Shown here: positions 5,801-25,767 of the stretch, piece by piece
Position numbering within the stretch: position 1 is the first letter of the stretch
Layout of the letters: the number at the start of each line of letters is the position of its first letter
Position numbers and translations under genes: made by a program
Notes under the pieces: generated by a model
What the model was told of the DNA's origin: nothing
Databases searched by the model: none
Seen by the model: only the letters and a program-made list of their open reading frames with translations
IMG/VR virus record: IMGVR_UViG_3300008110_000518
Coordinates: 1 to 26,718 of that record
Strand: one strand, 5' to 3'
Source of the DNA: a virus
Length of the DNA stretch: 26,718 nucleotides

Positions 5801-8800
5801 AACATCGTTGCTGCAAATTTAAACTCAACAGGAAATGTAAGTGCTGTATCAAACATTAATGCTGCAGGAGTTAGTGTATCTGGTAATATATCTGCAGTAG
5901 GAAATGTTAATGCAAATAACGTTAACTCTACAACTCTTTCAGCGTCAGGAAATATTACAGCATTAAATGCTAATTTAGGTAATGCAGTTACCGCTAATTT
6001 CTTCTTAGGAAATGTAAGAGGTAATTTATTTAATGGTACTACAAGCATCAATGTGCCTGCAGCTAATGGAAACGTTGCAGTTAGTGTCAATAATGTTTCT
6101 AACGTTGTTGTTATAAGTCAAAATACAGTTACGGTAACCGGTGTATTATCAGTTACAGGTAATTCAAATTTATCAACTATAAATGGTTCAACTGCTAATG
6201 TTACTACTGTAAATGCTACTACCGTAAATTCCGCAGTATTAATAGGATCAACAGTGTCAGCCACTGGCAATGTTGAAGCAGGTAATCTAGTAACAAGTGG
6301 AAATCTAAGTGTTGCAGGGAACAGTAATTTAGCCAATGCTCAATTTAGTGGAAGTATAACTGCTGCAGGTACTATCACAGGCGCAAACTTAAGCACTACC
6401 GGAACAGTAATTACTAGTGGAAATGTAAATGCAGGAAATATTAATTCTGCAAATATTATAAGTGCTATTGGAAATATTAGTGGCGGTAATTTAAGTATTA
6501 CTGGACTAGTTAGAGGTGGTAATATTTCAGCAGTTGCTAATGTTAATGCTGCAAATATCATAAGTGCTAACATAAGTGTTACTAGTAATTTAACAGTAGC
6601 TAATTTAGCAAATGTAGGTAATTTAATAGCTACAGGTAATATTAGTGCATACAGTAATGTTAAGTCAGACAATGTAAATGCTAACACTTTACTGATTAAC
6701 TCAGCAGCCACACTTAATAATTTATCCGTTACGAACTTTGTAAGGTCTAATTTAGTGCCTAATGTAACTGCTACTTATAATTTAGGAATTCCTGCAAATA
6801 CTTGGCGTAGTTTAGCAGTAAGTAACGTGGGTGTATCTATTGGTCAAACATCAATTACATCTAATGTTGATAACCTAACAATTAATGCAAATAATACAAT
6901 AATTTCATATGTGACAGCTAATGATATTTCTGTTGCCAATCTTGCTAATTTAGGAAATATAGCCAATGTAAAAATTGCCGGCGGGTCAATAGATGATGTT
7001 ATAACTACCGACGGTAATGGAACTTTAAGCTTTGCGAACATTTTAAATATCGTTCCGGCTGCAGGAACAAACACAGAAATTCAATTTAACGATAATGGTA
7101 CTTTTAATGGTTCATCATCATTAAGATTCTTTAAGAGCAATGGTGTAACAAGTGGTACGTTCGCAGGAAATGCTTCAAGATTGTTTGGTATAGTAGGTGC
7201 AAATATAACTGGTCAAGTGCCTAACGCTTTATTAGCTAGTACTGTTACTTTCCCGTCACAAGCAAATATTACATCAGTCGGAAACTTAATTTCGTTAAGT
7301 GTTGTAGGAAATGTTAGAGCAGGTAATGCAAGTTTAGGTAATTTAGCAAATGCGAACTTTTTCTCTGGAAGATTAGTTACATCTAACCAACCTAATATCA
7401 CTGATTTAGGATCTCTGAATAACTTGACAGTTAGTAATATTGACGGTGTAGTAAACTTTGAATATACATCAAATGTAACACTTGGTCAAATATCTAACTT
7501 GCATATTGCAGGTGGATTGAACGGCCAATATTTAGTTACTGATGGAGTTGGTAATCTAAGCTGGTCTACTCCTATTGCAGCTGGTGTTGCAAATGGTTTA
7601 AGTAATATGACCATTGAACAAAGTGGAAATATCGCATTTCAAGTCGCTGGTTTCGCAAATAGATTTAGAATTGAACAATCAACTTTCTCATCTAATGTTC
7701 AAGGTATTTTCAACGAATCAGTTAACTTCTTTGCACCTGTTAGTTTAGGTACAATAGCAAACGTAAGAATTTTAGGTGGACAAACTGGACAGGTTCTAAC
7801 CACTACAGGCGTATCAGGTCAAATTGGCTGGGCATCTGCACCAGCAACACAATCTATTGTAAATGGCAACAGTAATGTTATAGTCGGACCCAATACAAAT
7901 ATTAGAGTAAGTGTCGCAGGTATATCAAATGTAACGCAATTTACAAGCACTGGAATAATAACAGGTATTGTAAGCGCAACAGGTTTAGTTAATACAGGTA
8001 GTGCTAATTTAGGCAATATAAGCAATGTTAAAATTTTCGGCGGCTCAGCTGGTCAAATTATACAAACAGATGGGACAGGCAATTTAAGTTATGTTGCTGC
8101 TCCAATTTCTGCTATATTAGCAAATGGTTTAAGCAACGTTTCTATTGACTTAAGTGGTAATGTAAGAACAAGTGTTGCAGGTACAGCGAATGTATTGGTA
8201 GTTGCAAATACAGGAATAACTGTTACAGGAATTTCAAACTTAGGTTCTAACTCTAATGTTAAAATTACAGGTGGTGCAGCTAATCAATTACTGTCAACTG
8301 ATGGTACAGGTAATCTTGCATGGGTAGCCTCACCTCCAACATCACAAATTAGCAACGGTACAAGTAATTTAACTATAAGCCAAAACGGAACCATTGTTGC
8401 AGTCGCTACTGGAACAACTGCACTTACCATATCTAACTCAGGTATTAATGTATCTGGTGCAATCAATGCGACAGGTAATATTAATACAGATATATTAAAA
8501 CTAAAAATAGCAGGTGGTATAGCAAATGCTATTTTAATTGCAACCGACACTACGGGCAATTTAGCTTGGGGTAGCTTGCCTGCATCAAATCAAATAGTAG
8601 GTGGCAATAGTAATGTAATTGTAAATCCTAACGCTAACGTTTCGATTGGTGTTACAGGTGTTCCTAATGTTATGGTAGTTACACCAACTAGAGTTAACAT
8701 TACAGGTGATTTACTATTAACAGGAAACGCTAACCTAACTAGTACAGACGCACTAAATATTCCAGGTGGTAATCCCGGAGATGTTCTATCAACCGACGGT

Positions 8801-11800
8801 GCTGGTAACTTAAGCTTTACTACCCCTTCAGTTGGTACTGCAATTGTTAATGGATCAAGTAACGTTCGTATACCTGCAAGTGCAAGTAACATTAACTTTG
8901 CTGTTAGTGGTGCTCCTAACGTTTTTGTATTGTCTCCTACGCTAGCTAGTTTGAATGGTAATTTAAGTGTAACTGGAAGTTCAAATATAAACGGTAATAT
9001 AAACTTAGGATCTACATTAAGTGCCGCTGGTAACGTAATAGGAGCAAACCTTAGCACACCCGGAACTGTCAATGCATCAGGCAATATAAACACTTCACTA
9101 AACCTTTCAGTCACGGGCGCCGCCACAATAACAGGGCAATTGACAATTGGTTCAGCTAATTTAGGCAACGTTTTAAATGGTTCGGGTAACATTTCGTTAA
9201 CAGGAAACATAACTGGTAATAATTTAGTAGGTAATAATCTCAGTACAACTGGAAACATAAATGGTATCAATGTTACAGCTGGCGCCAATGTCATTTCAGG
9301 CAATATTTATGTAAGTAATACGGTGAGTGCTGCAGGTAACATTGCGACATCTACAAACATTACAGCAGCAGGTACAATATCTGCTATTGGAAACATTACA
9401 GCGGATCGTTTTATTGGTAACGGTGCTTTACTAACCAATGTAACAGCAAACGTTTCACGTATTGCAAATGGTGTAAGTAATATTTCTATACCTGTAGCTA
9501 ACGGTAATATTGGTTTCACTGTAGGTGGCGCCAACGTTGTTACAGTTTCCCCAGGCAACTTTATTATTGCAACTGATAGTGGCATAGGCGGAAACTTAAA
9601 CGTATTTGAAAACATCACAGCAGGAAATCGTATAACTGCAAATGGTAATATTACTGCAGTAGGCAACATCACAGGTAATTACATTTATGGTAATGGTGCT
9701 TTCTTAACTGGCGTTAATACCGACATTTATAATGATGCAAACGTAGCTAATTACTTACCAAATTATACTGGTAATATTAATAATGTCAATAATATAATTG
9801 CTAATAATATTATTAGAACTTCAGGTTTACAGGTTTCATACCTTAGTATTTCATCAGCTACTACTCTTACAACTTCTAGGGCAGGTGCATTAGTTGATTT
9901 AACGAACAGTGGTTATCAAATAATTTTACCAAATCCTATAGGTAATCCAGGTGTAAATTATACATTTAGATTGAGAACCCTTGGACAAAACGTTAATTTA
10001 GCAACACCAAGTGGAACATTTGAGGGTTCAGGCTATACAGGTCAGGGTATAATTACAATAGCATTTGCAATTGGTCAATACTTCTATGTCTATAGTGACG
10101 GAACAAAGTACATTATTTCTGCTAGAATTGAATCAGAGGCTGGTGCTGGATTAAGAGTAAGAACAGGAACTCAATCAACTTCTACTACAACCGGAGCATT
10201 AGTTGTAACAGGTGGGTTAGGTGTAAGTCTCAACTTATTTGCCGGTGGAAATGCAAATATATCAGGTGCGTTATCAATTGGTGGGTCATTCAATTCACCT
10301 GCTGCAAATATAGGTGCAGTTACAGGTAATATATTTGGTAGAACTACAAGTAATATAATTATTGCTAATGGTGATGTAGGTGCAGGTGAACTTATATTCC
10401 GTGCAGGCGGCGCCATCATTCAAACAATCAATAATGCTAATGTAACAGTAAATGGAAATATAAGTGCTACTGCAAATATATCTTCTTTGGGTAATATATA
10501 TTCACCGCATGCAAATTTAACTGGAAATTTAACTACACCAATTGTAATTACAAACACAATTACTAGCAATGCAACTAATTCTTCAAATAGTGCATTAAAT
10601 GTTTTTGCAAACAGTATTACTACAGGTAACGTAACAGGTAACGGTAGTATAGTATTAGGTGGTTTACTTGGACTACATGCTAATGGAAACATAACTAATG
10701 TACAAAATCTTCAAGTATCAAATGTCAATGCTCAAAACATCACAGCTCCTGTATTCAATGTAGGTAATATTAGTGTCTCAAGTAATGTTACAGCTAACGG
10801 GGTAATTCATTCAAACAATGTAGGCACAGGTAATAACTTCAGAGTTGGTAACAGTGTTTGGTTAGGTGATCTTAATACTGCCGATAGCTTAGCAGTTAGA
10901 AGTCAGCAAAATCCAACAATTGGTTATATTACATTTGGTTCTGATTCTACTGCTAAATTAGGACGTAGTGGCACCGCAGCATTAACATGGAATAGCAACT
11001 TATCAGTTGGTGGCACAATAACTGCAAATAACTTTGTTGGTAACATTAATGTAGCTAATACAGATTTAAGTGCAAACAGCTTTACATCAAATAATTTCTT
11101 TGGCGGCAATTTCTCTGGAAGATTAATCACAACAGTTATTGGTGCAAATACTGTAGAAATGGTTCGTGCTAACATAGCAGGCCCAACAAATGCTGACTAC
11201 TTTAGTATTGATGTTGGTGGCAACTCACAAGATTTTGGATTTGTATCATTTAACACAGGTGATAACGGATCAGAACCAATTTATTTTAGACAGTACAATG
11301 GTCCAAATATTCAAAATCAAGTTACATTATTAGATCAGAGCGGTAATACATTCTTCCCTGGCAGCATAAGCGCAAATGGTAATATTACTGCTGGTAACTT
11401 GCGCGGTAATTTAACAGCAGTTGTTAATGCGCCAGGAACTGCTAATATAATTAATGCTGTAATGGCAGGTAGTGACGCCTTTAGACTACAGTTGGGTGGT
11501 AACCTATCAGATCAAGGATATGTAGCGTTTGATGTAGGTGATGAAAATACTGAAAGTATAATATTTAGACAGTTTAGTGGCCCTAATTTTGCTACAGAAC
11601 AACGCAGAGTAACATTGATGGATGCTAATGGTGATGCTGTGTTCCCCGCAGGCGCAAACTTATTTGTGGGTAATAGAATAGGTGCTACCTCTTTAAGTGT
11701 TTCTGGAACAGTTACGGCTGCAAGTCTTGTTGGTACTATTAGCACGACAGGAAACATAAATGCAGGTAATTTTGTTGGTAACTTATCAGCATTTGCTGCA

Positions 11801-14800
11801 AATGCTACTATATTCAATGGACAAAACGTAAGTTTAACTGGTAATATTTCTGCAACAGGCGGAACAGTTAATGCTAACTTATACGTTGGTAATACAATAA
11901 GTTTAACTGGTACAATTTCAGGATCAAGTTTAACTGGAAATGTAAGTGCATGTTCAATATTTACCACAAGTCTTACTGGAACGAACGCAAGTCTATCAGG
12001 TAATATAACAGCTAATAACTTTATATCTAACAGCACTGGTACAGGTAATAATTATGCAGTTGGTAATCGTGCGTTTATCGGTGATATTGGTGTAGCAGAT
12101 ACAGTCATTATTAAGGGACAAAATAACCCTGCTAATGGATACATTGTGTTTGGTAATGGCAATAATAGTCAAACATTAGGTAGAGCAGGCACAGGTCCAT
12201 TAACTTATAGTGGAAATATTAGTGCTGCAGGTACAATAACAGCAAATAATTTTGTTGGTAATATCACATTAAGCAATGCTGACATAAACGCAAATAGTTT
12301 TACATCTAATAATTTCTTTGGTGGTAACTTTGTTGGTTCACTAATAACAAACACTATCATTGGATCAAATACTTTCCAATTAATTCGTTCTAATGTCGCT
12401 GATAATGACTACTTCAGAGTGATTGTTGGTGGTACTGGAACAGATCAAGGTTTCGTATCATTTGAAACAGGTGATCAAGGAAATGAACCTATATACTTTA
12501 GACAATATAATGGTGCAAGTATTCAAAATGAAGTTACACTATTAGATGCAAATGGCAATTCAATATTTGAAAATGCAATTGCAAATAATTTTGTTGGTAA
12601 TCTTTTTGTTTCAACTCCAACTGTATTCACAAATGCAAACATTGTTAGTGGCACGATGGCAGGAAATGATGGATTTAGAATACAAATAAGTGGTTCAGGA
12701 TCAAGTCAAGGAAATGCGTATATTGACACCACTGATGGCGCTGGCACTTCACCTACTCCGATAATAGTAAGACAGTTTAATGGGGTTGGATATACTTCAG
12801 AAATTCGTTCATTGACATTACTTGATAGAAATGGTAATAGTATTTTCCCTGCTAATGTCTCAGTTACTGGAACTTTAAGCGCATTAGGAAATCTTTCTGT
12901 TTTAGGTACATTAAATGCCGCAGTATTAAGCACAACCGGTACAATTAATGCAGTAAATGTTTCTGCTACTGGAACAATATCATCTCCTTCACTGACAGGA
13001 ACAAATATTTCTGTTACAGGTAATGTAAGGGCACAAACTGATATAGTTGCAACTGCAAACTTACAGGGTCAAAATGTTACATCATTAGGTCAAATCACAG
13101 CATTAGGTAGTATTACAGCTATCGGAAATGTAATCGGTGATAGACATACAGGTAACATAGTATCTGTTACAGGTAATATTACAGGTAGCAGCTTAATAGG
13201 TAATGTAACTGCGACAACGGCCAATGTTACAAGTTTAACTGGTATTGCGGCAAGCTTGTCAGGTAATATAACTGCTAATAACTTTATAGCGACAAGCAAT
13301 GGTACTGGAAATAATTATGCTGTAGGAAATGACGCTTTTATTGGCGATGTTAACATTGCAGATACAATAATATTAAAAGGCCAAGCAAATTCTGCTAATG
13401 GATATATTATATTTGGTACTAGTAACAACAGTCAAAGTTTAGGTCGTGCAGGAACTGGACCACTTACTTGGTCAAGCGACATGTCACTTGTTGGTAATGT
13501 TACTGCAAATAATTTTGTAGGTAACTTTAACTTTAGTAGTGGTGATTTAAGTGCAAATAGTTTCACATCAAATACATTTGTTGGTGGTAATTTCAGAGGT
13601 AGGTTAATCACAGCTAATCTAACAGGCACCAATACAGCAGAGTTAATAAGAGCTAATATTGCTGATAATGATGTATTCACTGTGACAGCTGGAGGATTCG
13701 GGGTCAATCAAGGCTACGTTGAATTTGCTACAAGAGATGAAGGTAATGAACCAATTTTCTTTAGACAGTATACTGGTGGCACTGCTTCAAGTAATCTAAC
13801 TCTTTTATCTACAGCTGGTGATACGATACTAAACAAAAACTTGTCTGTACCAGGAAATATTACTACTAGCGGTAGCATAACAGCAAGTAGTATTATTGGT
13901 ACTCTTACTGGAATCGCTAACACAACTAGCACTACAGCTCTTGTTAGTGCAATTATGGCAAATGGTGGCGCCGGACAGGACTTCTTCAGACTGGCAGTTG
14001 GTGGCACTGGAACTGATCAAGGTTTCGTAGAAATTGCGACTGGTGATAATGCTGCAGAACAAATATATGTAAGGCAATATCAAAATATAAGTGGCAACCC
14101 TTTTGGTGGTATTGTAAAAGAAGCTACGTTATTAGATAATACTGGAAATACTATATTCCCAGGAACTGTACAAGCAAATCTTGGCATAAGATCACTTGGT
14201 GCTTTATCTGTGTTTGGTGCAGCCACCGTACAAGGGCAATTATCTGTGACAAGTGGCGGAGATGTTGTTGTCAGTGGCGGCGGAGATGTTGTTGTAAGTT
14301 CAGGTGGTAATGTTACTGCAAATAATATTAACGCAACTAACCAAATACGAGGTAGTTCACTTGTAGCAAATAGTTCAATAACACTTGGATCTTCAAATGC
14401 AATAATGTATGCTAATGGAGTTATTATTACAAATGGATCTATAACTTCATATGATAGCCTTAATACAACCGGTAACGTAATAGCAGGTAATTTAAGAGCG
14501 AATAGTAACATCACTGCAACTGGTAATATAACTGCAACCGGTAATATAACTGCAGTTGCAAATATACATGCTTCAAGTGTATTTGGTAATTTATCTGCTA
14601 CTTCTGCTGTAGTTAGCAGCGTAACAGGTACAACCTCAAGTGTAACCGGCAACGTTACAGGAAATATGTTTATTTCTACAGCAACTGGTACTGGAAATAA
14701 TTATAGAATAGGTTCTGCTGCATGGTTAGGTGATATATCTAGTTCTGACACTGTAAGAATAACTGGATTTACTGATCCTGCTAATGGGTACATAGTATTT

Positions 14801-17572
14801 GGTAATGGTAATAACGCTGCTAAATTAGGTCGTGCAGGAACTGGTTCGTTGACATATTCAGGTGATATGTCATTAACTGGAAATTTAACAGCAAACAATT
14901 TAGTAGGTAATCTAAACTTAGCATCAGGAAATGTAACTGCTGCAAACTTCATTGCCACACATAGTTTTTGGGGCGGCAATTTAAATGGTACACTTACTAG
15001 AAATAATTTAAGTGGAACAAGCAATGCAAACTTAATATTTGCAAATATTGCTGACACAGATTTCTTTAAATTAACTATCGGTGGTACATCAAGTGATGCC
15101 GGATTTGTTGCTATTGATGTAGGTGACAATGGTAATGAACAAGTATTTGTAAGACAGTTTACAGGCACGAATCCAACTCGTACATTAACGTTACTAGATA
15201 CAGACGGCAACACACAGATACCTGGCAATTTAAATGTAACAGGAATTGTTTCAACGACTTCAAATATCGTTGCTAATAATTTTGTTGGTAATCTTGCTAT
15301 GTCTGTAGGGGGTGGAGTCACAGCAAATATTATTAATACAACTGTCGCAGGTACTGATTTCTTTAGAATTCAAATAGGCGGAGATACTAATAACGGATAT
15401 GTTTCTTTTGATACAGCCAATGAAGGTAGTGAACCAATATATGTAAGACAATACAATTCTTCGCAAGTTACTCCATTTAACTCACTAGAACGTGAATTAA
15501 TACTTCTTGGACCAACTGGAAATAGTAGATTTCCAGGAAGTGTATCTGTAGTTGGTAGTATTTCGGCAGGTGGTAATATAACTGCACCTACCCTAAGTCT
15601 CACCGGAAATATAGTTACGAGTGGCAGTATTACAGCAACAGGAAATGTAAATGTTTCAACAAATCTAAGTGTTGTTTCAAGTATTACAGGTGGTTCAATA
15701 CTATCACAAGGAACATTAAGTGCAACAGGTGCTATATCTACTCCTTCTACTATTACCGCAACAGGAATAATCAGTGCGACCGCAAATATTGTAAGTGCAT
15801 CTAATTTAATTGTTGGAACTAATATACATGCTACATTTGGAAATCTGTTTATTAACAGTGTAATTGGTAATGTAGTATCCACAACAGGAAATGTGACTGC
15901 AGCTAACCTAGTTGGTAATCTAACTGCAACATCAGCAGTTATTACTAGCGTAACAGGTATAAGTTCAAGTGTAACAGGGAATGTAACTGGTGGTATCATT
16001 GTATCAACTGCTACTAGCACAGGTCAAAACTTTAGAGTAGGCACTACAACTTGGTTAGGTGATATAGGTGTTACTGAAACATTGATGATCAGTAGCCAAA
16101 CTAATGCTGCAAACGGTTATGTTGTATTTGGTAATGGAAATAATTCAGCTAAGTTAGGACGTGCTGGCACTGGCCCATTGACTTACACAGGTGATATGTC
16201 GTTAACTGGTAATATCACTGCAAATAATTTATTTGGTAATGTAACTATTAGTGGTGATTTAGTTGCGAATAACTTCACAGCTAACAATTTTATTGGTGGT
16301 AACTTAGTTGGTACTTTAACATGTAACAATTTGACAGGTACAAACAATGCTAACTTAATACTTGCAAATATTGCTTCAAGCGATTACTTTAGATTAACAG
16401 TTGGTGGTACTGGAGCAGATTCAGGATTCGTATCATTTGATATAGGTGATAATGGTAATGAACCAATCTACTTTAGGCAATATAGTGGTCTCACTCCAAG
16501 AACATTGACATTATTAGATAGTGCAGGCAATACACTATTACCAGGTAACTTATCACTATCCGGTAGTATTACAACTACAGGAAATGTGACTGCAAATACG
16601 TTTACGGGTAATTTACAAATAAGTTTGTCTGGTACAAATACAGCAAATATTATTAATACAACTATTGCAGATAATGATTACTTTAGAATTCAAGTAGGTG
16701 GCACAGGACCTAGTGGTGGATATGTAGAAATAGCTACAGCAAATGAAGGCACTGAACCAATATATGTAAGACAGTATGCTGAACTTAGTGGTAATCCTTA
16801 TGGTAACATTCAAAGAACTCTTACATTATTAGATGCTAGTGGTAATACACAAATACCTGGTAATTTAAGTGTTACTGGAAATATAAGTTCAGCGAATATT
16901 ATTAGTGCTTCAAGTGTAATTGGTAGTGTAGTTACACCTGGTCTTACTGCAAGCATGACTGCAAATGCTCTATATGGTGTCATTGCATCAGATGACTACT
17001 ATAGAATACAAGTTGGCGGTACAGGCGCAAATGCTGGATTCATATCTATTGATACTGCTGACAACGGTGATGAACCAATTTATGTAAGACAATATACAAA
17101 CAGCGGTGGAAACCCATTTGGTACTAAGTCACGTGAACTTATTTTGTTAGATAGCGGTGGTAATACAACATTACCGGGCAACTTATCAATAACTGGTGGA
17201 TATAGTAACATAGGAGTACCAGTAATAGGTGGTTCAGCTCAAATTGGTTATAGAATCGCTCCTTTAAACACAAAAAATGCTAGTTACACATTAACTAGTG
17301 TTGACACAGGGACGTTAATTTACTATACAGGGCAACCAGGAGGAACGATTTTAAATGTTCCTAACGATACGACTCAAACAATACCTCCTGGAACTCAGCT
17401 TCGTATTATAAATGGTGATAGTACTCAGAACTTAACTGTAGCTCCTGGATTAGGTGTTACAATGAGATACCAAGGAAGTACTGGTACTAGAACATTATCA
17501 ACACATGCTGATGTAACGATTATAAAAGTAGCAGCGAATACTTGGTACATTGACGGATACGGCATAACCTAA
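2807..17572 (+). CDS. giant repetitive tail-fibre-like structural protein
   Basis: This is a single open frame of 4921 residues with no break. Residues 1-41 resemble the N-terminal domain found on many phage fibre and receptor-binding proteins (Mtd-N type: QLAEGELGFATDERRLYIG). Residues about 150-235 resemble the FCCH-like domain seen in phage structural proteins (KFYGVKLTNKTFSLYSDPG). The first two thirds are Asn/Gly/Ser/Thr/Ala-rich repeats with a 17-residue period (for example GNVTGANLFTTGVVSAS), mixed with recurring motifs of the types GGxxGQVLTTDGxGNLSW and NGxSNVxI...ANVxVVT. A probable globular insert lies at nt 9720-10190. From nt 10823 a longer module pair repeats five times. A compact beta-rich C-terminal domain occupies about the last 100 residues. 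I noticed only three cysteines. There is no signal peptide, coiled coil, peptidase or intramolecular chaperone motif. Probable role: host-contacting fibre or other long virion appendage. The fibre role is inferred from the N-domain and repeat style; the receptor is unknown. Confidence 0.8.
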   Translation: MAIIQISKIQHRTGANVDLPQLAEGELGFATDERRLYIGNDPNLFPPAGNSLTTQTEILTEVSVLNWSKIGGTANTQIALTSPVGNGQVLVANANTWVNAGGTSNIKIDLGNANNVVMRGGLNGYVLTTDGTGNLTWEGTGVGTFRIQDISKTNPAVVTTINDNTVVTGIPLTIIGVSGMTQISTAGENSTNKFYGVKLTNKTFSLYSDPGLANAVNSTGFTPATPNTGNIICSFYQAGTGVPGGANTQIQFQDTAGLFGGSANLTFNKNTSNLALAGNANITNINVTSNIVANNFSGNIGLGNTAQAANFTTVNANSAISAAGNVTGANLRTTGIVSAGGTLTAGNVNTLGSANVGNLSVTGVVRGNLIPATDIQQDLGNATNRWRSLYLSGNTIYLGNTSISSDANGISSNTLTAENANISNTVYANFVSAIITADSSSQPNISSVGTLNGLTVNGLTQLGDVSNVRIGGGFPDYTLVTDGLGNLSWSPVVLPDIVAGSTNQIQYNINSGLAASANLTFNPTTSTLQSVTISATGSITGSNLNIGSNIIAGNNIRGAIISSTGNITASSNIQGSNLLATSSISTGGALTASSISVSTNISVLGNVLANNLNAASVVSANGNISGSNLNTAGRVSANGNITGANLFTGGNVSATGTVIAQQVNSGNISVSGNITSNNLIINNEISSTGNITSANYILGNGAFLTGINLGNQSSLNQISNGTSNVSIPSLNGAVTISSGATANVVTVTNTGLSVSGNVSVNGNSNLGNLSTSTFSASGNITGANLLTSGRISATGNANVANLGVAGTISASGNATVNNLNTGQISASGNLTALNANLGNLVTANFFQGDGSLLTNLTVAAGSSIINGNSNVSVAANGNVRTSVGGTANVQVITSTGIAVTGTHSATGNVTGANLFTTGVVSASGNLSGNNIAAAAAISASGNISGLNIAAAGGITSSGAISTATNITATGNVTAGNIASVTNANFTGTISAVGIVSNANIVAANLNSTGNVSAVSNINAAGVSVSGNISAVGNVNANNVNSTTLSASGNITALNANLGNAVTANFFLGNVRGNLFNGTTSINVPAANGNVAVSVNNVSNVVVISQNTVTVTGVLSVTGNSNLSTINGSTANVTTVNATTVNSAVLIGSTVSATGNVEAGNLVTSGNLSVAGNSNLANAQFSGSITAAGTITGANLSTTGTVITSGNVNAGNINSANIISAIGNISGGNLSITGLVRGGNISAVANVNAANIISANISVTSNLTVANLANVGNLIATGNISAYSNVKSDNVNANTLLINSAATLNNLSVTNFVRSNLVPNVTATYNLGIPANTWRSLAVSNVGVSIGQTSITSNVDNLTINANNTIISYVTANDISVANLANLGNIANVKIAGGSIDDVITTDGNGTLSFANILNIVPAAGTNTEIQFNDNGTFNGSSSLRFFKSNGVTSGTFAGNASRLFGIVGANITGQVPNALLASTVTFPSQANITSVGNLISLSVVGNVRAGNASLGNLANANFFSGRLVTSNQPNITDLGSLNNLTVSNIDGVVNFEYTSNVTLGQISNLHIAGGLNGQYLVTDGVGNLSWSTPIAAGVANGLSNMTIEQSGNIAFQVAGFANRFRIEQSTFSSNVQGIFNESVNFFAPVSLGTIANVRILGGQTGQVLTTTGVSGQIGWASAPATQSIVNGNSNVIVGPNTNIRVSVAGISNVTQFTSTGIITGIVSATGLVNTGSANLGNISNVKIFGGSAGQIIQTDGTGNLSYVAAPISAILANGLSNVSIDLSGNVRTSVAGTANVLVVANTGITVTGISNLGSNSNVKITGGAANQLLSTDGTGNLAWVASPPTSQISNGTSNLTISQNGTIVAVATGTTALTISNSGINVSGAINATGNINTDILKLKIAGGIANAILIATDTTGNLAWGSLPASNQIVGGNSNVIVNPNANVSIGVTGVPNVMVVTPTRVNITGDLLLTGNANLTSTDALNIPGGNPGDVLSTDGAGNLSFTTPSVGTAIVNGSSNVRIPASASNINFAVSGAPNVFVLSPTLASLNGNLSVTGSSNINGNINLGSTLSAAGNVIGANLSTPGTVNASGNINTSLNLSVTGAATITGQLTIGSANLGNVLNGSGNISLTGNITGNNLVGNNLSTTGNINGINVTAGANVISGNIYVSNTVSAAGNIATSTNITAAGTISAIGNITADRFIGNGALLTNVTANVSRIANGVSNISIPVANGNIGFTVGGANVVTVSPGNFIIATDSGIGGNLNVFENITAGNRITANGNITAVGNITGNYIYGNGAFLTGVNTDIYNDANVANYLPNYTGNINNVNNIIANNIIRTSGLQVSYLSISSATTLTTSRAGALVDLTNSGYQIILPNPIGNPGVNYTFRLRTLGQNVNLATPSGTFEGSGYTGQGIITIAFAIGQYFYVYSDGTKYIISARIESEAGAGLRVRTGTQSTSTTTGALVVTGGLGVSLNLFAGGNANISGALSIGGSFNSPAANIGAVTGNIFGRTTSNIIIANGDVGAGELIFRAGGAIIQTINNANVTVNGNISATANISSLGNIYSPHANLTGNLTTPIVITNTITSNATNSSNSALNVFANSITTGNVTGNGSIVLGGLLGLHANGNITNVQNLQVSNVNAQNITAPVFNVGNISVSSNVTANGVIHSNNVGTGNNFRVGNSVWLGDLNTADSLAVRSQQNPTIGYITFGSDSTAKLGRSGTAALTWNSNLSVGGTITANNFVGNINVANTDLSANSFTSNNFFGGNFSGRLITTVIGANTVEMVRANIAGPTNADYFSIDVGGNSQDFGFVSFNTGDNGSEPIYFRQYNGPNIQNQVTLLDQSGNTFFPGSISANGNITAGNLRGNLTAVVNAPGTANIINAVMAGSDAFRLQLGGNLSDQGYVAFDVGDENTESIIFRQFSGPNFATEQRRVTLMDANGDAVFPAGANLFVGNRIGATSLSVSGTVTAASLVGTISTTGNINAGNFVGNLSAFAANATIFNGQNVSLTGNISATGGTVNANLYVGNTISLTGTISGSSLTGNVSACSIFTTSLTGTNASLSGNITANNFISNSTGTGNNYAVGNRAFIGDIGVADTVIIKGQNNPANGYIVFGNGNNSQTLGRAGTGPLTYSGNISAAGTITANNFVGNITLSNADINANSFTSNNFFGGNFVGSLITNTIIGSNTFQLIRSNVADNDYFRVIVGGTGTDQGFVSFETGDQGNEPIYFRQYNGASIQNEVTLLDANGNSIFENAIANNFVGNLFVSTPTVFTNANIVSGTMAGNDGFRIQISGSGSSQGNAYIDTTDGAGTSPTPIIVRQFNGVGYTSEIRSLTLLDRNGNSIFPANVSVTGTLSALGNLSVLGTLNAAVLSTTGTINAVNVSATGTISSPSLTGTNISVTGNVRAQTDIVATANLQGQNVTSLGQITALGSITAIGNVIGDRHTGNIVSVTGNITGSSLIGNVTATTANVTSLTGIAASLSGNITANNFIATSNGTGNNYAVGNDAFIGDVNIADTIILKGQANSANGYIIFGTSNNSQSLGRAGTGPLTWSSDMSLVGNVTANNFVGNFNFSSGDLSANSFTSNTFVGGNFRGRLITANLTGTNTAELIRANIADNDVFTVTAGGFGVNQGYVEFATRDEGNEPIFFRQYTGGTASSNLTLLSTAGDTILNKNLSVPGNITTSGSITASSIIGTLTGIANTTSTTALVSAIMANGGAGQDFFRLAVGGTGTDQGFVEIATGDNAAEQIYVRQYQNISGNPFGGIVKEATLLDNTGNTIFPGTVQANLGIRSLGALSVFGAATVQGQLSVTSGGDVVVSGGGDVVVSSGGNVTANNINATNQIRGSSLVANSSITLGSSNAIMYANGVIITNGSITSYDSLNTTGNVIAGNLRANSNITATGNITATGNITAVANIHASSVFGNLSATSAVVSSVTGTTSSVTGNVTGNMFISTATGTGNNYRIGSAAWLGDISSSDTVRITGFTDPANGYIVFGNGNNAAKLGRAGTGSLTYSGDMSLTGNLTANNLVGNLNLASGNVTAANFIATHSFWGGNLNGTLTRNNLSGTSNANLIFANIADTDFFKLTIGGTSSDAGFVAIDVGDNGNEQVFVRQFTGTNPTRTLTLLDTDGNTQIPGNLNVTGIVSTTSNIVANNFVGNLAMSVGGGVTANIINTTVAGTDFFRIQIGGDTNNGYVSFDTANEGSEPIYVRQYNSSQVTPFNSLERELILLGPTGNSRFPGSVSVVGSISAGGNITAPTLSLTGNIVTSGSITATGNVNVSTNLSVVSSITGGSILSQGTLSATGAISTPSTITATGIISATANIVSASNLIVGTNIHATFGNLFINSVIGNVVSTTGNVTAANLVGNLTATSAVITSVTGISSSVTGNVTGGIIVSTATSTGQNFRVGTTTWLGDIGVTETLMISSQTNAANGYVVFGNGNNSAKLGRAGTGPLTYTGDMSLTGNITANNLFGNVTISGDLVANNFTANNFIGGNLVGTLTCNNLTGTNNANLILANIASSDYFRLTVGGTGADSGFVSFDIGDNGNEPIYFRQYSGLTPRTLTLLDSAGNTLLPGNLSLSGSITTTGNVTANTFTGNLQISLSGTNTANIINTTIADNDYFRIQVGGTGPSGGYVEIATANEGTEPIYVRQYAELSGNPYGNIQRTLTLLDASGNTQIPGNLSVTGNISSANIISASSVIGSVVTPGLTASMTANALYGVIASDDYYRIQVGGTGANAGFISIDTADNGDEPIYVRQYTNSGGNPFGTKSRELILLDSGGNTTLPGNLSITGGYSNIGVPVIGGSAQIGYRIAPLNTKNASYTLTSVDTGTLIYYTGQPGGTILNVPNDTTQTIPPGTQLRIINGDSTQNLTVAPGLGVTMRYQGSTGTRTLSTHADVTIIKVAANTWYIDGYGIT
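4430..6700 (+). repeat. 17-residue (51-bp) coding repeats in the fibre gene
   Basis: In this part of the fibre gene the protein repeats with a 17-residue period. Clear adjacent units are GNISGSNLNTAGRVSAN and GNITGANLFTGGNVSAT near nt 4673-4774, and GNVTGANLFTTGVVSAS and GNLSGNNIAAAAAISAS near nt 5527-5628. The core pattern is G-N-[IV]-[ST]-G-x-N-[LI] followed by nine variable residues ending in S-A. The period suggests one beta-solenoid coil per unit. Similar units continue more irregularly on both sides, so the limits given are approximate. Confidence 0.7.
7497..8960 (+). repeat. six tandem ~250-bp two-motif repeats in the fibre gene
   Basis: Two motifs alternate here. Motif C (type KITGGAANQLLSTDGTGNL) begins near nt 7497, 7761, 8026, 8257, 8502 and 8755. 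Motif D (type NGLSNVSIDLSGNVRTSVAG) begins near 7590, 7860, 8120, 8350, 8600 and 8847. The period is about 231-265 bp, or about 84 residues. Three more C motifs (near 3148, 4206, 6966) and four more D motifs (near 4950, 5395, 6030, 9467) lie outside the array, so the pair pre-dates its tandem amplification. Confidence 0.7.
14252..14310 (+). repeat. short imperfect tandem repeat (SGGDVVV) in the fibre gene
   Basis: The unit AGTGGCGGAGATGTTGTTGT occurs at 14252-14271 and again at about 14273-14295 with an extra GGC, followed by a degenerate third unit. It encodes SGGDVVV, SGGGDVVV and SSGGNV. It lies between an A module and the next repeat block and looks like recent slippage expansion. Confidence 0.6.
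14513..14566 (+). repeat. 18-bp tandem repeat in the fibre gene
   Basis: ACTGCAACTGGTAATATA at 14513-14530 is followed by a copy with one change at 14531-14548 and a partial third copy. It encodes repeats of TATGNI. Near-identity at the DNA level suggests very recent expansion. Confidence 0.65.
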
Positions 17573-17578
17573 AAACAC

Positions 17579-17640
17579 CAGTTGGGGATAAATACATATG
17601 TTCTCTCTCTATATGGGAGACTTATGCAGTTCCCCAACTG
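17579..17640 (+). promoter_or_regulatory. inverted repeat enclosing a late promoter, 5' of the 17682 gene
   Basis: CAGTTGGGGA (17579-17588) pairs perfectly with TCCCCAACTG (17631-17640), starting 7 nt after the fibre stop. The late motif GATAAATA (17587-17594) begins in the last two bases of the left arm and runs into the loop. A second hairpin lies inside the loop: TCTCTC (17604-17609) pairs with GGGAGA (17615-17620) around a TATAT loop. A late start about 6 nt after the motif would begin the mRNA at about 17600, so only the inner hairpin would remain near its 5' end, with a leader of roughly 80 nt. AAGGAG at 17666-17671 is the ribosome-binding site. Confidence 0.6.
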
Positions 17641-17681
17641 CGTAGGACCTAGAACGTTCACACTTAAGGAGATGAAACAAA

Positions 17682-18791
17682 ATGGGACGCCCTTTAAAAA
17701 TAGCAAAAACAAACGCAGCAGTTAGCCCAGACGGAATTACCGATGAAGGTTATCCAAACGATGGCACTACAGACAATGGTTTTACAACTAGCGCACCTGG
17801 CGTAGTTGGTGGTATAGAAGCTGTTACTGTATATGGTTATGCAGCAGTAGAACAACAGCAACAAGGTACAATTGTTGCTTCAACAGCAACAACTACTGTA
17901 AGTGGATTCAGCACACAATTTAGTGATGTATTAAGTGTAGGTTCATTACTTTATGCAAACGATGTAGAATTAGGTGCAGTAAGTGTAATCAACGCATCAG
18001 CAAGTGATACAGTAACAGCAACTACAGCAAGTAACGACCGTTTAACAGTTACAGATTCAAGTCAATTTGTAGTTGGTGGTGCAGTCACAGTAGCTGGTAA
18101 TATGGGTAATTTAATAGCAGGTACTGTATATTATGTATATGATTTACCAACAGCAACAACATTGCGTGTTAGCGAAACACCTGATCTTGCAGCAGTATTC
18201 CAATTAGCCGACGATGCTGTTGGACCAGTCGGAATAACACAAGGCGATACAGTTACTTTAGGAGCAGTTTCAAACGGAAATGCCTCAAATGTATCTTACA
18301 CAAGTGCAACTTCAGACCGTTGCTGGATCTTACGTCAAAAAGGTAAGAGAAAGCATTTAGTAGTCAGAAATCAGAATATTGAAGATGAATTTATGGCTAA
18401 TGGACAAGCATACTATATTGTTAGTGTTAGTAACACTAATTGGGAAGCATTAGGAGCAGGCCCAGATGCAGGAGTAGGTAAACTATTTACTTGTACAGGT
18501 GCAAATGCTAGCTTAACAACTAATGGTTATGGATATGCAGCTGGTGTTTGTACATTAGTAAATAAAGCTTCAAATGCTTTAGTGAGAAATGAAATGACAG
18601 TTACATTAGACAAAGCTTCAGGTGGTGATCCATATTGCCAAAGCTTAACTGATCATTTTGCAATTGACTTTACTAATAATGGCACAGATGAAAATTCAGG
18701 AGTTAAGTATATTGCTTCATTTGATGATAAGACAGATACACCTGATCCAGCAACTGGTCTTATTACGATTGATATTGATTACGCTTGCTAA
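17682..18791 (+). CDS. phage virion structural protein (beta-rich, modular)
   Basis: This is a 369-residue protein. The start is supported by AAGGAG 10 nt upstream, and the N-terminus MGRPLKIAK resembles a recurrent N-terminus (MGRPL) of marine T4-like phage structural proteins. Three short beta-rich modules common in phage virion proteins can be seen. The first is at residues about 62-100 (GTI...TTTVSGFSTQFSDVLSVG). The second is an FCCH-like module at about 112-175 (LTVTDSSQF...GTVYYVYD...TTLRVSETPD). The third is at about 240-295 (GQAYYIVSVSNTNWEALGAG). The C-terminus is acidic and ends in Cys. It has no signal peptide or enzyme motif. Its own late promoter and strong terminator make it a separate, probably highly expressed late unit. 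Head decoration, whisker or fibre accessory roles are all possible. Confidence 0.7.
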   Translation: MGRPLKIAKTNAAVSPDGITDEGYPNDGTTDNGFTTSAPGVVGGIEAVTVYGYAAVEQQQQGTIVASTATTTVSGFSTQFSDVLSVGSLLYANDVELGAVSVINASASDTVTATTASNDRLTVTDSSQFVVGGAVTVAGNMGNLIAGTVYYVYDLPTATTLRVSETPDLAAVFQLADDAVGPVGITQGDTVTLGAVSNGNASNVSYTSATSDRCWILRQKGKRKHLVVRNQNIEDEFMANGQAYYIVSVSNTNWEALGAGPDAGVGKLFTCTGANASLTTNGYGYAAGVCTLVNKASNALVRNEMTVTLDKASGGDPYCQSLTDHFAIDFTNNGTDENSGVKYIASFDDKTDTPDPATGLITIDIDYAC

Positions 18792-23040: not shown

Positions 23041-23069
23041 TTGTAATTAAATACAGGGTATGCTATAAT
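23041..23069 (+). promoter_or_regulatory. sigma70-like promoter with extended -10
   Basis: TTGTAA (23041-23046) and TATAAT (23064-23069) are separated by exactly 17 bp. TG at 23061-23062 gives an extended -10 element. The -10 is a perfect consensus and the -35 matches at 4 of 6 positions. A transcript would start near 23076. AGGAG at 23087-23091 lies 6 nt before the ATG at 23098. This fits early or middle transcription by host polymerase of the 23098-24961 operon. The divergent gp14 motif lies about 40 bp away. Confidence 0.75.
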
Positions 23070-23097: not shown

Positions 23098-24297
23098 ATG
23101 TCCCGTAAGTCTAAGAATTCAGATCATGCAATGATCAAAGCACTTAATCCCAAAGACCCTGATACAAAATACACAGGGGAAGAGCCATTTTTTGCGGTAC
23201 AACCCGATAGTGAATTTCGTACTAGTGCAATGGCTAGGGCGTTCAGTTGGTACACAAGATTCTATGGTCGTAAAGAAGCCAAAGACTTACTAATTCAATA
23301 TCTAGAACTTAATGACCGTAAGGCAGATGCTAAGGTGATGGCAAAAGCACCTGAAAGTGAGATTTTAGGTACATATGGTTGGCTAGCACGTATGACATTG
23401 CGTGGACTACAACTAACTGAGCATGAAGAAATGTCATTGCAAAATGAAATTACTAGGTTAATGACCTGTGTACATAAGCCTGAAACAGTTTTTAAATCTA
23501 ATCTTACTCCTCAAGAAGTAGAAGTAGAAGTAGAAAAAGAAACTACTAATCGTCCTAATGTGCAAGAAATTATGCGTGAAAAAGCACGTGAGGCAACAGG
23601 GGAAATCATTGGACTGTTTGATGATTTTATTCAGGCTGGATTGAAGGGTAGTCTGCCAGGCAAACCCATTGATATTCTGTCAAAGCATAACATTCTTCCA
23701 CAACATATCCCTATTATTCTTGACGTTTGGAAGAAAGAACTTAATGAATGGTATGAAGTGCAAGAAGGTAAAGACCCACAACTTGTAGAGGGCTACAGTC
23801 AGTTCGGCAAGGTACAAGTGAAAAATATGATTAAGGCTATTGAGCAAGTTATTAGTGACCTCAATAGTTATATCAGCATCAAAAAAGCAAGCAAGACACC
23901 TCGTAAGCGCAAGCCGGTGCCAGTAGAGAAGATTGTTAGCAAACTCAAGTATCTCAAAGAGTTTAAAGACGCTGCGGCTAAACTTGATTTGGTTAGCGTA
24001 CATCCAACAAAGCTACATGGTGCAAGTGAAGCATGGGTGTATGATACTGCAAAGCGCAAACTGCATCACTACATTGCCGATCAATACAGTCAGACATTTA
24101 CTGTAAAAGGTAATACTATCATTGGCTTTGATACAGGCAAGAGTGAGATTAAAACATTACGTAAGCCAGGTGAGCAACTTAAAGAAATTATGGGAAGTAA
24201 GCCCGCAGCACGTAAATTCTTTGAGGGTATTAAAGCAACTGCGACTGTACCAAACGGTAGGTTTAACGAAAATATGCTAATACTGAAGGCATTCTAA
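23098..24297 (+). CDS. conserved phage protein of unknown function
   Basis: This 399-residue soluble protein has a strong AGGAG ribosome-binding site. Residues 1-130 are helical and rich in conserved-looking aromatic and basic residues (AFSWYTRFYGRKEAKDLL at 48-65). Residues 141-147 are an alternating Val/Glu run. A mixed helical region spans 155-260, and a strongly basic segment KKASKTPRKRKP sits at 262-273. The C-terminal 100 residues look like a beta-rich domain with LHGASEAWVYDTAKRKLHHY. I recognise the type only as a conserved gene of marine T4-like phages often found near MazG; no catalytic motif is clear. The basic segment might bind nucleic acid. Its stop overlaps the next ATG by one base (TAATG), so the three genes form an operon. 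Confidence 0.6.
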   Translation: MSRKSKNSDHAMIKALNPKDPDTKYTGEEPFFAVQPDSEFRTSAMARAFSWYTRFYGRKEAKDLLIQYLELNDRKADAKVMAKAPESEILGTYGWLARMTLRGLQLTEHEEMSLQNEITRLMTCVHKPETVFKSNLTPQEVEVEVEKETTNRPNVQEIMREKAREATGEIIGLFDDFIQAGLKGSLPGKPIDILSKHNILPQHIPIILDVWKKELNEWYEVQEGKDPQLVEGYSQFGKVQVKNMIKAIEQVISDLNSYISIKKASKTPRKRKPVPVEKIVSKLKYLKEFKDAAAKLDLVSVHPTKLHGASEAWVYDTAKRKLHHYIADQYSQTFTVKGNTIIGFDTGKSEIKTLRKPGEQLKEIMGSKPAARKFFEGIKATATVPNGRFNENMLILKAF

Positions 24298-24518
24298 TGA
24301 ACGAACGAATTAGAGAATTATACTATGAGTGTCAGGATGAAAGTCAAAGCACCGAGCAATGCTATCAAAAGTTCGCCGAGTTGATTGTGAAAGATTGTCT
24401 ATCCATTGCGAGACTACAGCGAAATAATATGCAATTCCTTGCATCAAACCCACCACAATCTGCTGCGGCATATGATATAGAACGAAATATTATGAATCAT
24501 TTTGGAGTTGAGGAATGA
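24297..24518 (+). CDS. small conserved phage protein
   Basis: These 73 residues begin MNERIRELYYEC, with FAELIVKDCLSI in the centre and MNHFGVEE at the end. From memory, this N- and C-terminal pattern is very common among small proteins of marine T4-like phages; no function is known. It is predicted to be all helical and is acidic. It is tightly coupled: TAATG with the gene before and ATGA with MazG after. Such a short linker protein between overlapping genes could be a regulator or an accessory subunit, but nothing in the sequence shows which. Confidence 0.65.
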   Translation: MNERIRELYYECQDESQSTEQCYQKFAELIVKDCLSIARLQRNNMQFLASNPPQSAAAYDIERNIMNHFGVEE

Positions 24519-24961
24519 ATATTGATTTAAACAAATACCAACACTTTGTAGAAAAAGTTACTAGTCAACCAAGTAATGATTTGACTACTTTTATGTCAAC
24601 ACTTGATAGACTAGATGCAAACTATGAATTAGATTTAAATGATGGACAAATGAAACATGGTCCTGACGTTAATCTCCCACTACTTATTACAGCATGTATG
24701 GGTCTAGCAGCAGAATCAGGTGAGTTCATTGAAATCCCTAAGAAAATTATCTTTCAAGGTAAGGCACTTACTGATGAAAACGTCCATCACATGAAACGTG
24801 AACTAGGTGATATCATGTGGTACTGGGTAAATGCCTGTAGGGCACTTCAGTTAGACCCAAATGAAGTCATTGCTGAGAATGTCAGAAAGCTAGAATCAAG
24901 ATATCCAGGTGGTAGCTTTGATGCATACTACAGTGAGAACAGAAAAGATAATGATCTTTAA
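24515..24961 (+). CDS. mazG: MazG-like nucleotide pyrophosphohydrolase
   Basis: This 148-residue protein has the all-helical NTP-pyrophosphohydrolase motifs. AAESGEFIEI supplies Glu67, Glu70 and Glu73 (the ExxE part), and KRELGDIMWYW supplies Glu96 and Asp99 (the ExxD part), which together bind Mg2+. ENVRKLESRYPGG (Asn122, Lys125, Arg129) forms the nucleotide-binding segment. MazG enzymes cleave (d)NTPs to NMP and pyrophosphate. Marine phage versions have been linked to dNTP salvage or to altering host (p)ppGpp-related physiology, which is debated. It is the last gene of the early-type operon. A terminator hairpin follows 7 nt after the stop. The ATGA overlap with the small gene before it implies translational coupling. 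Confidence 0.87.
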   Translation: MNIDLNKYQHFVEKVTSQPSNDLTTFMSTLDRLDANYELDLNDGQMKHGPDVNLPLLITACMGLAAESGEFIEIPKKIIFQGKALTDENVHHMKRELGDIMWYWVNACRALQLDPNEVIAENVRKLESRYPGGSFDAYYSENRKDNDL

Positions 24962-24968
24962 TTAACCC

Positions 24969-25002
24969 TTCCCCAGATAAATATAGTATCTGGGGAATTT
25001 TT
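24969..25002 (+). promoter_or_regulatory. terminator hairpin containing a late promoter and the gp13 ribosome-binding site
   Basis: TTCCCCAGATA (24969-24979) and TATCTGGGGAA (24987-24997) form a perfect 11-bp stem around AATATAG, followed by five T (24998-25002): an intrinsic terminator for the mazG operon. GATAAATA (24976-24983) begins inside the left arm and ends in the loop. GGGGA (24992-24996), the only Shine-Dalgarno-like sequence before the gp13 ATG at 25003, lies in the right arm with 6-nt spacing. A late start about 6 nt beyond the motif (near 24990) would omit the left arm and free the ribosome-binding site. Confidence 0.72.
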
Positions 25003-25767
25003 ATGCCAATATCACAAAGTTTACAGCAATTAAAAGACGAATTATTTAAAAACTTACGTTATCGTTTGGGTGACGGAATAGTAGATGTAGAACTGGATCC
25101 TGAACACTACGAAGCAGCCTATCAATATGCAATTAAAGTTTATCGTCAACGTGCGCAGAACGCTACGATAGAGTCCTATACTCTATTTGAAATACATAAA
25201 AATACAAACGTTTATACTTTACCGGATGAGTTTATCAATGTTAGACAGTTGTTTCGTAGAACTGTTGGACTTGAGACAGGTCCATCTTCTAGTAGCTTTG
25301 ATCCTTTTAGTAGTGCTATATTAAACACATACCTACTTAACTACAATTATGCAGGTGGTTTAGCAACATACGATTTTTATGCAGGATATATAGAATTAGC
25401 AGCACGTATGTTCGGTGGATATGTAATTTACACATTTAACCCTGTAACTAAAGAATTACGTATCGTGCGTGATCCAAAAGGTTCAGGAGAAAAAGTCTTA
25501 ATTTGGGCCGACATTCAACGCCCTGAATTGGAGTTGCTACAAGATCCAGGCGCTGGCGTATGGATCGGAGATTGGACACTTGCGCAGTTAAAGAGTATCT
25601 TAGGTGAAGCACGTGAAAAGTTTGCAAGCATTGCAGGACCAGCTGGTGGCACAACATTAAATGGTACTGCTCTCAAAGCAGAAGCAAAAGCGTCACAAGA
25701 TCAACTTATTGAGGATTTGCGTAGATACGTAGATTATAGCCAACCGTTAACTTGGATACAAGGTTAA
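25003..25767 (+). CDS. gp13-like neck protein (head completion)
   Basis: This 254-residue protein is somewhat shorter than T4 gp13 (about 309). It begins MPISQSLQQLKDELFKNL, with RLGDGIVDVELDPEHYEAA, a helical start shared by head-completion/connector proteins. YTLPDEFINVRQLFRR lies in the middle. Near the end, WTLAQLKSILGEAREKF is followed by GPAGGTTLNGTALKAEA, a pattern typical of marine T4-like gp13. gp13 and gp14 close the filled head at the portal vertex and provide the tail attachment site. Expression appears tied to the late promoter in the hairpin upstream. Unlike T4, where 13-14-15 are adjacent and co-directional, gp14 and gp15 here lie 2 kb away on the other strand. Confidence 0.75.
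   Translation: MPISQSLQQLKDELFKNLRYRLGDGIVDVELDPEHYEAAYQYAIKVYRQRAQNATIESYTLFEIHKNTNVYTLPDEFINVRQLFRRTVGLETGPSSSSFDPFSSAILNTYLLNYNYAGGLATYDFYAGYIELAARMFGGYVIYTFNPVTKELRIVRDPKGSGEKVLIWADIQRPELELLQDPGAGVWIGDWTLAQLKSILGEAREKFASIAGPAGGTTLNGTALKAEAKASQDQLIEDLRRYVDYSQPLTWIQG

Follow-up and report, generated by a model that had tools for sequence, protein, structure and literature searches.

A hairpin joining a late promoter to the ribosome-binding site of the neck gene gp13: a probable early-off/late-on switch in uncultured and jumbo phages

Introduction

In phage T4, the long early RNA of gene e (lysozyme) folds into a hairpin over the ribosome-binding site, and about 100-fold less product is made; the 5' strand of the hairpin is encoded by DNA that contains the late promoters of this gene, so that the late RNA is without that strand (PMC3014915). 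The late genes soc and 49 of T4 are carried on early polycistronic RNA with the Shine-Dalgarno (SD) sequence or the AUG in a helix (PMC3014915). For I-TevI and segB of T4 and mobE of Aeh1, the ribosome-binding site is hidden on early or middle RNA and becomes accessible on late RNA, whose 5' end lies within the structure (PMC2988022). Leaders that hide a ribosome-binding site and have an internal late promoter have so far been known from T4 and its close relatives, mostly for lysozyme, soc, gene 49 and homing endonucleases.

Here we analyze a hairpin directly 5' of a gp13-type neck gene in a 26,718-nucleotide stretch of viral DNA, called the window below, and in related phages. A search of the open-access literature turned up no earlier description of the element at gp13.

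Results

Structure of the hairpin at the gp13 start

A first-pass annotation of this DNA had described, at gp13, an 11-bp perfect hairpin that is followed by a U-run, has a late motif in its left arm and loop, and carries in its right arm the only SD-like sequence of gp13. All of these features were found in the sequence (Table 1). The stem consists of 11 perfect base pairs and the loop of 7 nt, spanning 24969-24997 in the window. The octamer GATAAATA is split, with GATA in the left arm and AATA in the loop, and GGGGA, the sole SD-like sequence for gp13, lies 6 nt 5' of the ATG.

Table 1. Positions of the element and of the surrounding genes in the window
Feature	Position	Strand	Basis
Left arm TTCCCCAGATA, pairs with the SD-bearing arm	24969-24979	+	Sequence, fold, covariation
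Loop AATATAG	24980-24986	+	Sequence
Right arm TATCTGGGGAA	24987-24997	+	Sequence, fold
U-run TTTTT, giving the hairpin intrinsic-terminator form (candidate function)	24998-25002	+	Sequence
gp13 start codon ATG	25003-25005	+	Sequence
SD-like GGGGA of gp13, within the right arm	24992-24996	+	Sequence and computed accessibility
Putative late promoter octamer GATAAATA, T4 gp55-type by analogy	24976-24983	+	Sequence
Predicted late transcription start, offset 12-13 from the G of GATAAATA	24988-24989	+	Inferred from the leaderless class
gp13-type neck (head-tail adaptor) gene	25003-25767	+	phrog_211, E 6e-26
mazG-like pyrophosphohydrolase gene, co-directional, directly 5' of the hairpin	24515-24961	+	MazG Pfam, E 2e-9
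Small ORF in the mazG operon, overlapping both neighbours	24297-24518	+	ORF list
First gene of the early-type operon, phrog_11903 (function unknown)	23098-24297	+	ORF list, phrog match
Predicted early sigma-70-type promoter, extended -10 (TTGTAA-N17-TATAAT, TGC before the -10), upstream of the operon ending in mazG	23041-23069	+	Sequence

The RNA fold of the hairpin has a free energy of -16.8 kcal/mol (z -4.15), and none of 200 shuffled sequences was equally stable. The computed accessibility (unpaired probability) of the central G of GGGGA was 0.00 on a long RNA and about 0.9 when the 5' end of the RNA was placed at 24976 or later. By computation, the SD sequence is therefore sequestered in a helix on long transcripts, as are the SD, the AUG or both in the T4-type switches. 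Rfam covariance models gave no match above the gathering score at 24969-24997, and the sole match in the window, RF02980, lies elsewhere.

GATAAATA occurs 4 times in the window against 2.3 expected, which is no enrichment, and terminator-like sites occur 9 times against 9.4 expected. Because both counts are at chance level there, the significance of the element comes from its relatives and not from the window alone. One copy of GATAAATA, at 2769, stands upstream of a single ORF of 4921 amino acids (2807-17572).

The early-type unit upstream of gp13

As in the T4-type switches, gp13 lies downstream of an early-type unit on the same strand. We compared the region before this unit in 39 relatives that have at least 2.2 kb of upstream DNA, among them L001, a near-twin of the window. 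The early-type promoter arrangement GGTTGnnn ... TGNTATAAT ... ATG was present at the corresponding place in 15 of them. Because this conserved sigma-70-type promoter stands before the operon at 23098-24961, the predicted chain from early promoter through mazG operon to locked gp13 is present in the sequence.

In one relative (L295) and phages related to it, mazG and gp13 are separated by a small inserted gene that resembles acyl carrier protein (Pfam PP-binding, E 1e-9). These phages retain the gp13 hairpin, and in some of them it reaches over the ATG. DNA matches to S-SSM7 and S-SSM6a cover mazG only and do not extend to the hairpin.

The late promoter and its predicted start

The 30.9-kb record of this phage has five copies of GATAAATA, all on one strand. 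We collected 82 copies from three related records of 84-367 kb (G002, G003 and G009) and measured the offset of the ATG from the octamer, which was 12-15 at 22 sites, 16-23 at none and 24-41 at 44. The empty interval suggests that the AUG is either at the 5' end of a leaderless RNA or far enough downstream to leave room for an SD sequence, and we infer from it that transcription starts at about offset 12-13. The spacing of T4 late promoters agrees with such a start. The distribution also suggests that many late mRNAs of these phages (L087-L156) are leaderless.

At gp13 the late 5' end is accordingly predicted at about 24988-24989, inside the right arm, and a late gp13 mRNA that begins there would be without the left arm. 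The first-pass annotation had proposed a late start near 24990 that drops the left arm, a proposal that gains support from the class of sites with an ATG at offset 12-15. Judged from sequence only, the late promoter is thus placed as in the T4-type switches, where the late RNA loses the 5' strand of the helix.

Two further features of the late promoters were observed. In several genomes a single gene is preceded by two GATAAATA sites with a spacing of 56-59 bp (G002:276647/276703, G003:113477/113533, G009:66435/66492 and G011:34307/34366), possibly a tandem late promoter. The freshwater-2 RNA of Rfam (RF02980) is at 17587-17684 in the window and also in L377, L378, L381, L385-L387 and others; 14 of 16 of these phage records contain it, nearly always as a single copy, and where checked it lies directly 3' of a GATAAATA late promoter and 5' of an ORF. 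Its position suggests a leader of late genes in this phage group. The loop and arm of freshwater-2 contain CCCCAACTG (17620-17640), which is complementary to CAGTTGGGG (17579-17587), a sequence that begins just upstream of the late promoter and runs into it; this complementarity is retained in the near relatives L386 and L387 and absent in more distant ones. Read-through RNA could refold the freshwater-2 RNA.

Covariation of the arms in uncultured relatives

Three scans of viral metagenomic contigs yielded several hundred gp13 loci and from these 120 distinct leaders with GATAAATA, whose kinship inflates the sequence counts and leaves the slid-register and same-genome controls uninflated. Across the 120 leaders the promoter octamer is invariant while both arms vary in concert (TTCCCCA/TGGGGAA, GTTTCCT/AGGAAAC, GTTACCT/AGGTAAC, AACTCCT/AGGAGTT, TTCTCCC/GGGAGAA and many others), and every leader has an SD-like sequence 5' of the ATG. 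In the 43 ungapped leaders, 88.4% of the cells are paired, whereas slid registers never exceed 46%. Both partners have changed in 8 of the 13 pairs, and the covariation score of 0.334 compares with 0.139 after shuffling. Mapped by parsimony onto the gp13 tree, the seven non-promoter pairs switched from one Watson-Crick type to another 79 times, a count that omits leaders with fewer than five of the seven pairs in Watson-Crick form.

The mean energy of arm pairing was -13.0 kcal/mol for arms of the same phage and -7.8 kcal/mol for arms swapped between phages (permutation z -18.8). This swapped-arm test rules out that the pairing arises by chance from the constraints of the SD sequence and the promoter. 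These comparisons of sequences indicate that the pairing is under selection. The switch reading in the first-pass annotation was exposed to relatives that keep the promoter without pairing between the arms; the relatives show the opposite, with the octamer retained and the arms covarying.

As DNA, the element is a near-perfect palindrome surrounding a promoter, and it could also be an operator at which a dimeric protein represses or activates gp13; I-TevI represses transcription from its late promoter by way of an operator that overlaps it (PMC2988022). We regard an operator as very unlikely here, as the outer arms conserve complementarity only and not sequence, unlike the DNA site of a protein, and the right arm is SD-like in every case. 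In addition, departures from Watson-Crick pairing are G-U in 31 cases and A-C in 19, an excess that mildly favours RNA over DNA pairing and is suggestive only.

Restriction of the hairpin to gp13

Over the same 44 nt, the median folding energy was -13.9 kcal/mol in the 120 gp13 leaders and -2.5 kcal/mol at the 82 GATAAATA sites of the three genomes. Among the 82 sites, values below -11 occurred only at two gp13 sites, at the gene that precedes gp13 in one of the records and at a single additional gene. A hairpin as a general property of late promoters is ruled out in these three genomes, where nearly all other sites are without it. When we searched 17 records with a covariance model of the element, gp13 was the single strong match in most of them, and the other matches included almost nothing of note save the same palindrome on the opposite strand. 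The model gave no strong match in the record of L052, which is without the hairpin.

A few other genes have a comparable arrangement. In G009 (L129:572-640), the gene just before gp13 has its late promoter in a 17-bp stem that covers its ATG. A superoxide dismutase-like gene of the leaderless type (Sod_Fe_C, E 7e-22) in L103 (G002:190900-192000, minus strand, near 559) has its late promoter within a hairpin and its AUG in the right arm, with -18.9 kcal/mol over 44 nt. A second gene of the cultured phage GAP32, at about 16.3 kb (L336), shows AATCCCCTAAATA...TTAGGGGATTttatt-ATG in a hairpin designed as at gp13.

The hairpin in RaK2-like jumbo phages

An equivalent hairpin over an SD-like sequence was found in 13 RaK2-like records (XaC1, RaK2, Munch, 121Q, GAP32, XbC2, CBB, SNUABM_19, BF, Hallingskeid, fENko, Muenster and SD-2_S15), with a gp13 identity of about 34-40%. 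These hairpins have energies of -17 to -25 kcal/mol, end just 5' of the start codon, and carry CTAAATA or TATAAATA in the left strand and the SD-like sequence in the right. The neighbourhood of gp13, dNMP kinase and tail sheath is common to most of the cultured jumbo phages checked. In RaK2 (L159) and 121Q (L161) the annotated gp13 ATG lies inside the hairpin, and the fit holds with the next in-frame ATG. This ATG, just after the SD-bearing arm, is probably the true start, with the annotation too far upstream.

The authors of the CBB genome described ATAAATA as a motif before structural genes (PMC5259590). Most RaK2-like records have the octamer xCTAAATA and not this consensus, and the identity of the promoter is less certain in them. 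In GAP32, CTAAATA shows a strand bias of 28 to 4, yet no excess over the control, and only some of its sites precede an ATG.

The U-run and termination

In the window a G+C-containing stem is followed immediately by five T, as in intrinsic (Rho-independent) terminators. The element might thus be a plain terminator of the mazG operon, with the overlap of late promoter and SD sequence resulting from the short intergenic space, and ten RaK2-like records also have at least four T after the hairpin (XaC1, GAP32, CBB, XbC2, BF, SNUABM_19, Munch, fENko, 121Q and SD-2_S15). However, the U-run is not conserved alongside the stem. At least four T precede the ATG in only 12 of the 120 uncultured leaders, mainly the nearest relatives of the window, while most of the leaders retain the pairing, and the rate of U-runs among gp13 leaders is no higher than among other late leaders of three relatives (4/45). 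In RaK2, Muenster and Hallingskeid the hairpin is present but no U-run follows it. Moreover, the stem carries a promoter and the right-arm region has an SD-like sequence in every case, unlike that of a terminator. A plain terminator therefore appears very unlikely to us. Because the U-run is limited to a few uncultured leaders and most RaK2-like records, the lock on translation is probably the shared function, and termination a possible addition in some phages.

Phages without the hairpin

The octamer is kept with little pairing (-4 kcal/mol or weaker) in 8 of the 113 leaders that have a readable upstream region (L317, L075, L255, L064, L060, L076, L052 and L079). In L052, L060, L064 and L076, several hundred nt separate the last clear co-directional ORF from gp13, and this long gap may remove read-through. 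L079 has a different upstream gene, and in L075 and L317 the octamer overlaps the stop codon of mazG.

Among the cultured relatives checked, no equivalent gp13 hairpin was found in PA5oct, Slicko01, Atu_ph07, Phosso, Vibrio 2.275 and SCTP-2. In the distant relatives PA5oct and Slicko01 it is absent though the upstream gene is co-directional; in the other four, the upstream neighbour is on the opposite strand. We considered and rejected a tie between loss of the hairpin and an opposite-strand upstream gene in the uncultured leaders, where the automatic opposite-strand ORF calls looked spurious and inspection revealed co-directional mazG or acyl-carrier-like genes upstream in several. The four cultured cases lend weak support to such a tie.

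A stable hairpin at the end of a gene often serves to protect an mRNA or to process it. The octamer follows the upstream gene by only 13-17 nt in many relatives, and the hairpin could cap the mazG mRNA at its 3' end or be cut by a ribonuclease that parts early from late RNA. Such a role in processing or stability leaves unexplained the fixed place of the octamer in the left arm and loop, the constant SD sequence in the right arm and the retention of the hairpin where the upstream gene is not mazG, and we think it highly improbable.

Discussion

The gp13 element very probably acts in cis as a T4-type switch that keeps translation off early and turns it on late; both the gene and the phage lineage are new for this kind of switch. 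Early in infection, host-type RNA polymerase would start near 23041-23069, transcribe the three-gene mazG operon and perhaps enter gp13. The hairpin on this long RNA would hide the gp13 SD sequence, and the neck protein would not be made; in the closest relatives and most RaK2-like phages, the U-run may also halt part of the polymerases. Later, a late sigma factor would start transcription at GATAAATA, at about offset 12-13, and the resulting mRNA, without the entire left arm, would have its ribosome-binding site free.

We put forward only tentatively a broader proposal, which may well prove wrong: that about 34 bp do three jobs at the border of early and late genes, as terminator of the early operon, as lock on the ribosome-binding site of read-through RNA and as late promoter that removes the lock; that this arrangement has been kept at the neck gene since before the RaK2-like and uncultured phages split; and that similar locks may guard other late genes, such as the superoxide dismutase-like gene and the one at about 16.3 kb in GAP32.

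With strong comparative support, the design known from T4 is now seen in many uncultured and jumbo phages, a large group in which it precedes a virion gene, and the cultured members RaK2, 121Q, GAP32, Munch and BF make the switch testable.

The first-pass annotation had called the compact fusion of these parts unusual. This holds for the added U-run only; a late promoter in the 5' strand of a hairpin that hides a ribosome-binding site is not new, being known for T4 gene e and I-TevI (PMC3014915, PMC2988022). We class the gp13 element with the T4 switches because it matches them by every available sequence test. As described for soc and gene 49, gp13 would be a late gene carried on early RNA with its SD sequence in a helix. 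As with I-TevI, segB and mobE, its ribosome-binding site is hidden, by computation, on long RNA and predicted to be free on late RNA; those leaders guard mobile endonuclease genes, whereas the gp13 element guards a virion gene and keeps its position over a wide range of phages with strong covariation. Its geometry is identical to that of gene e, but it stands before a neck-protein gene in a different phage lineage, and its hairpin has one octamer, with the GATA of the promoter forming the inner four pairs, and in some members a U-run.
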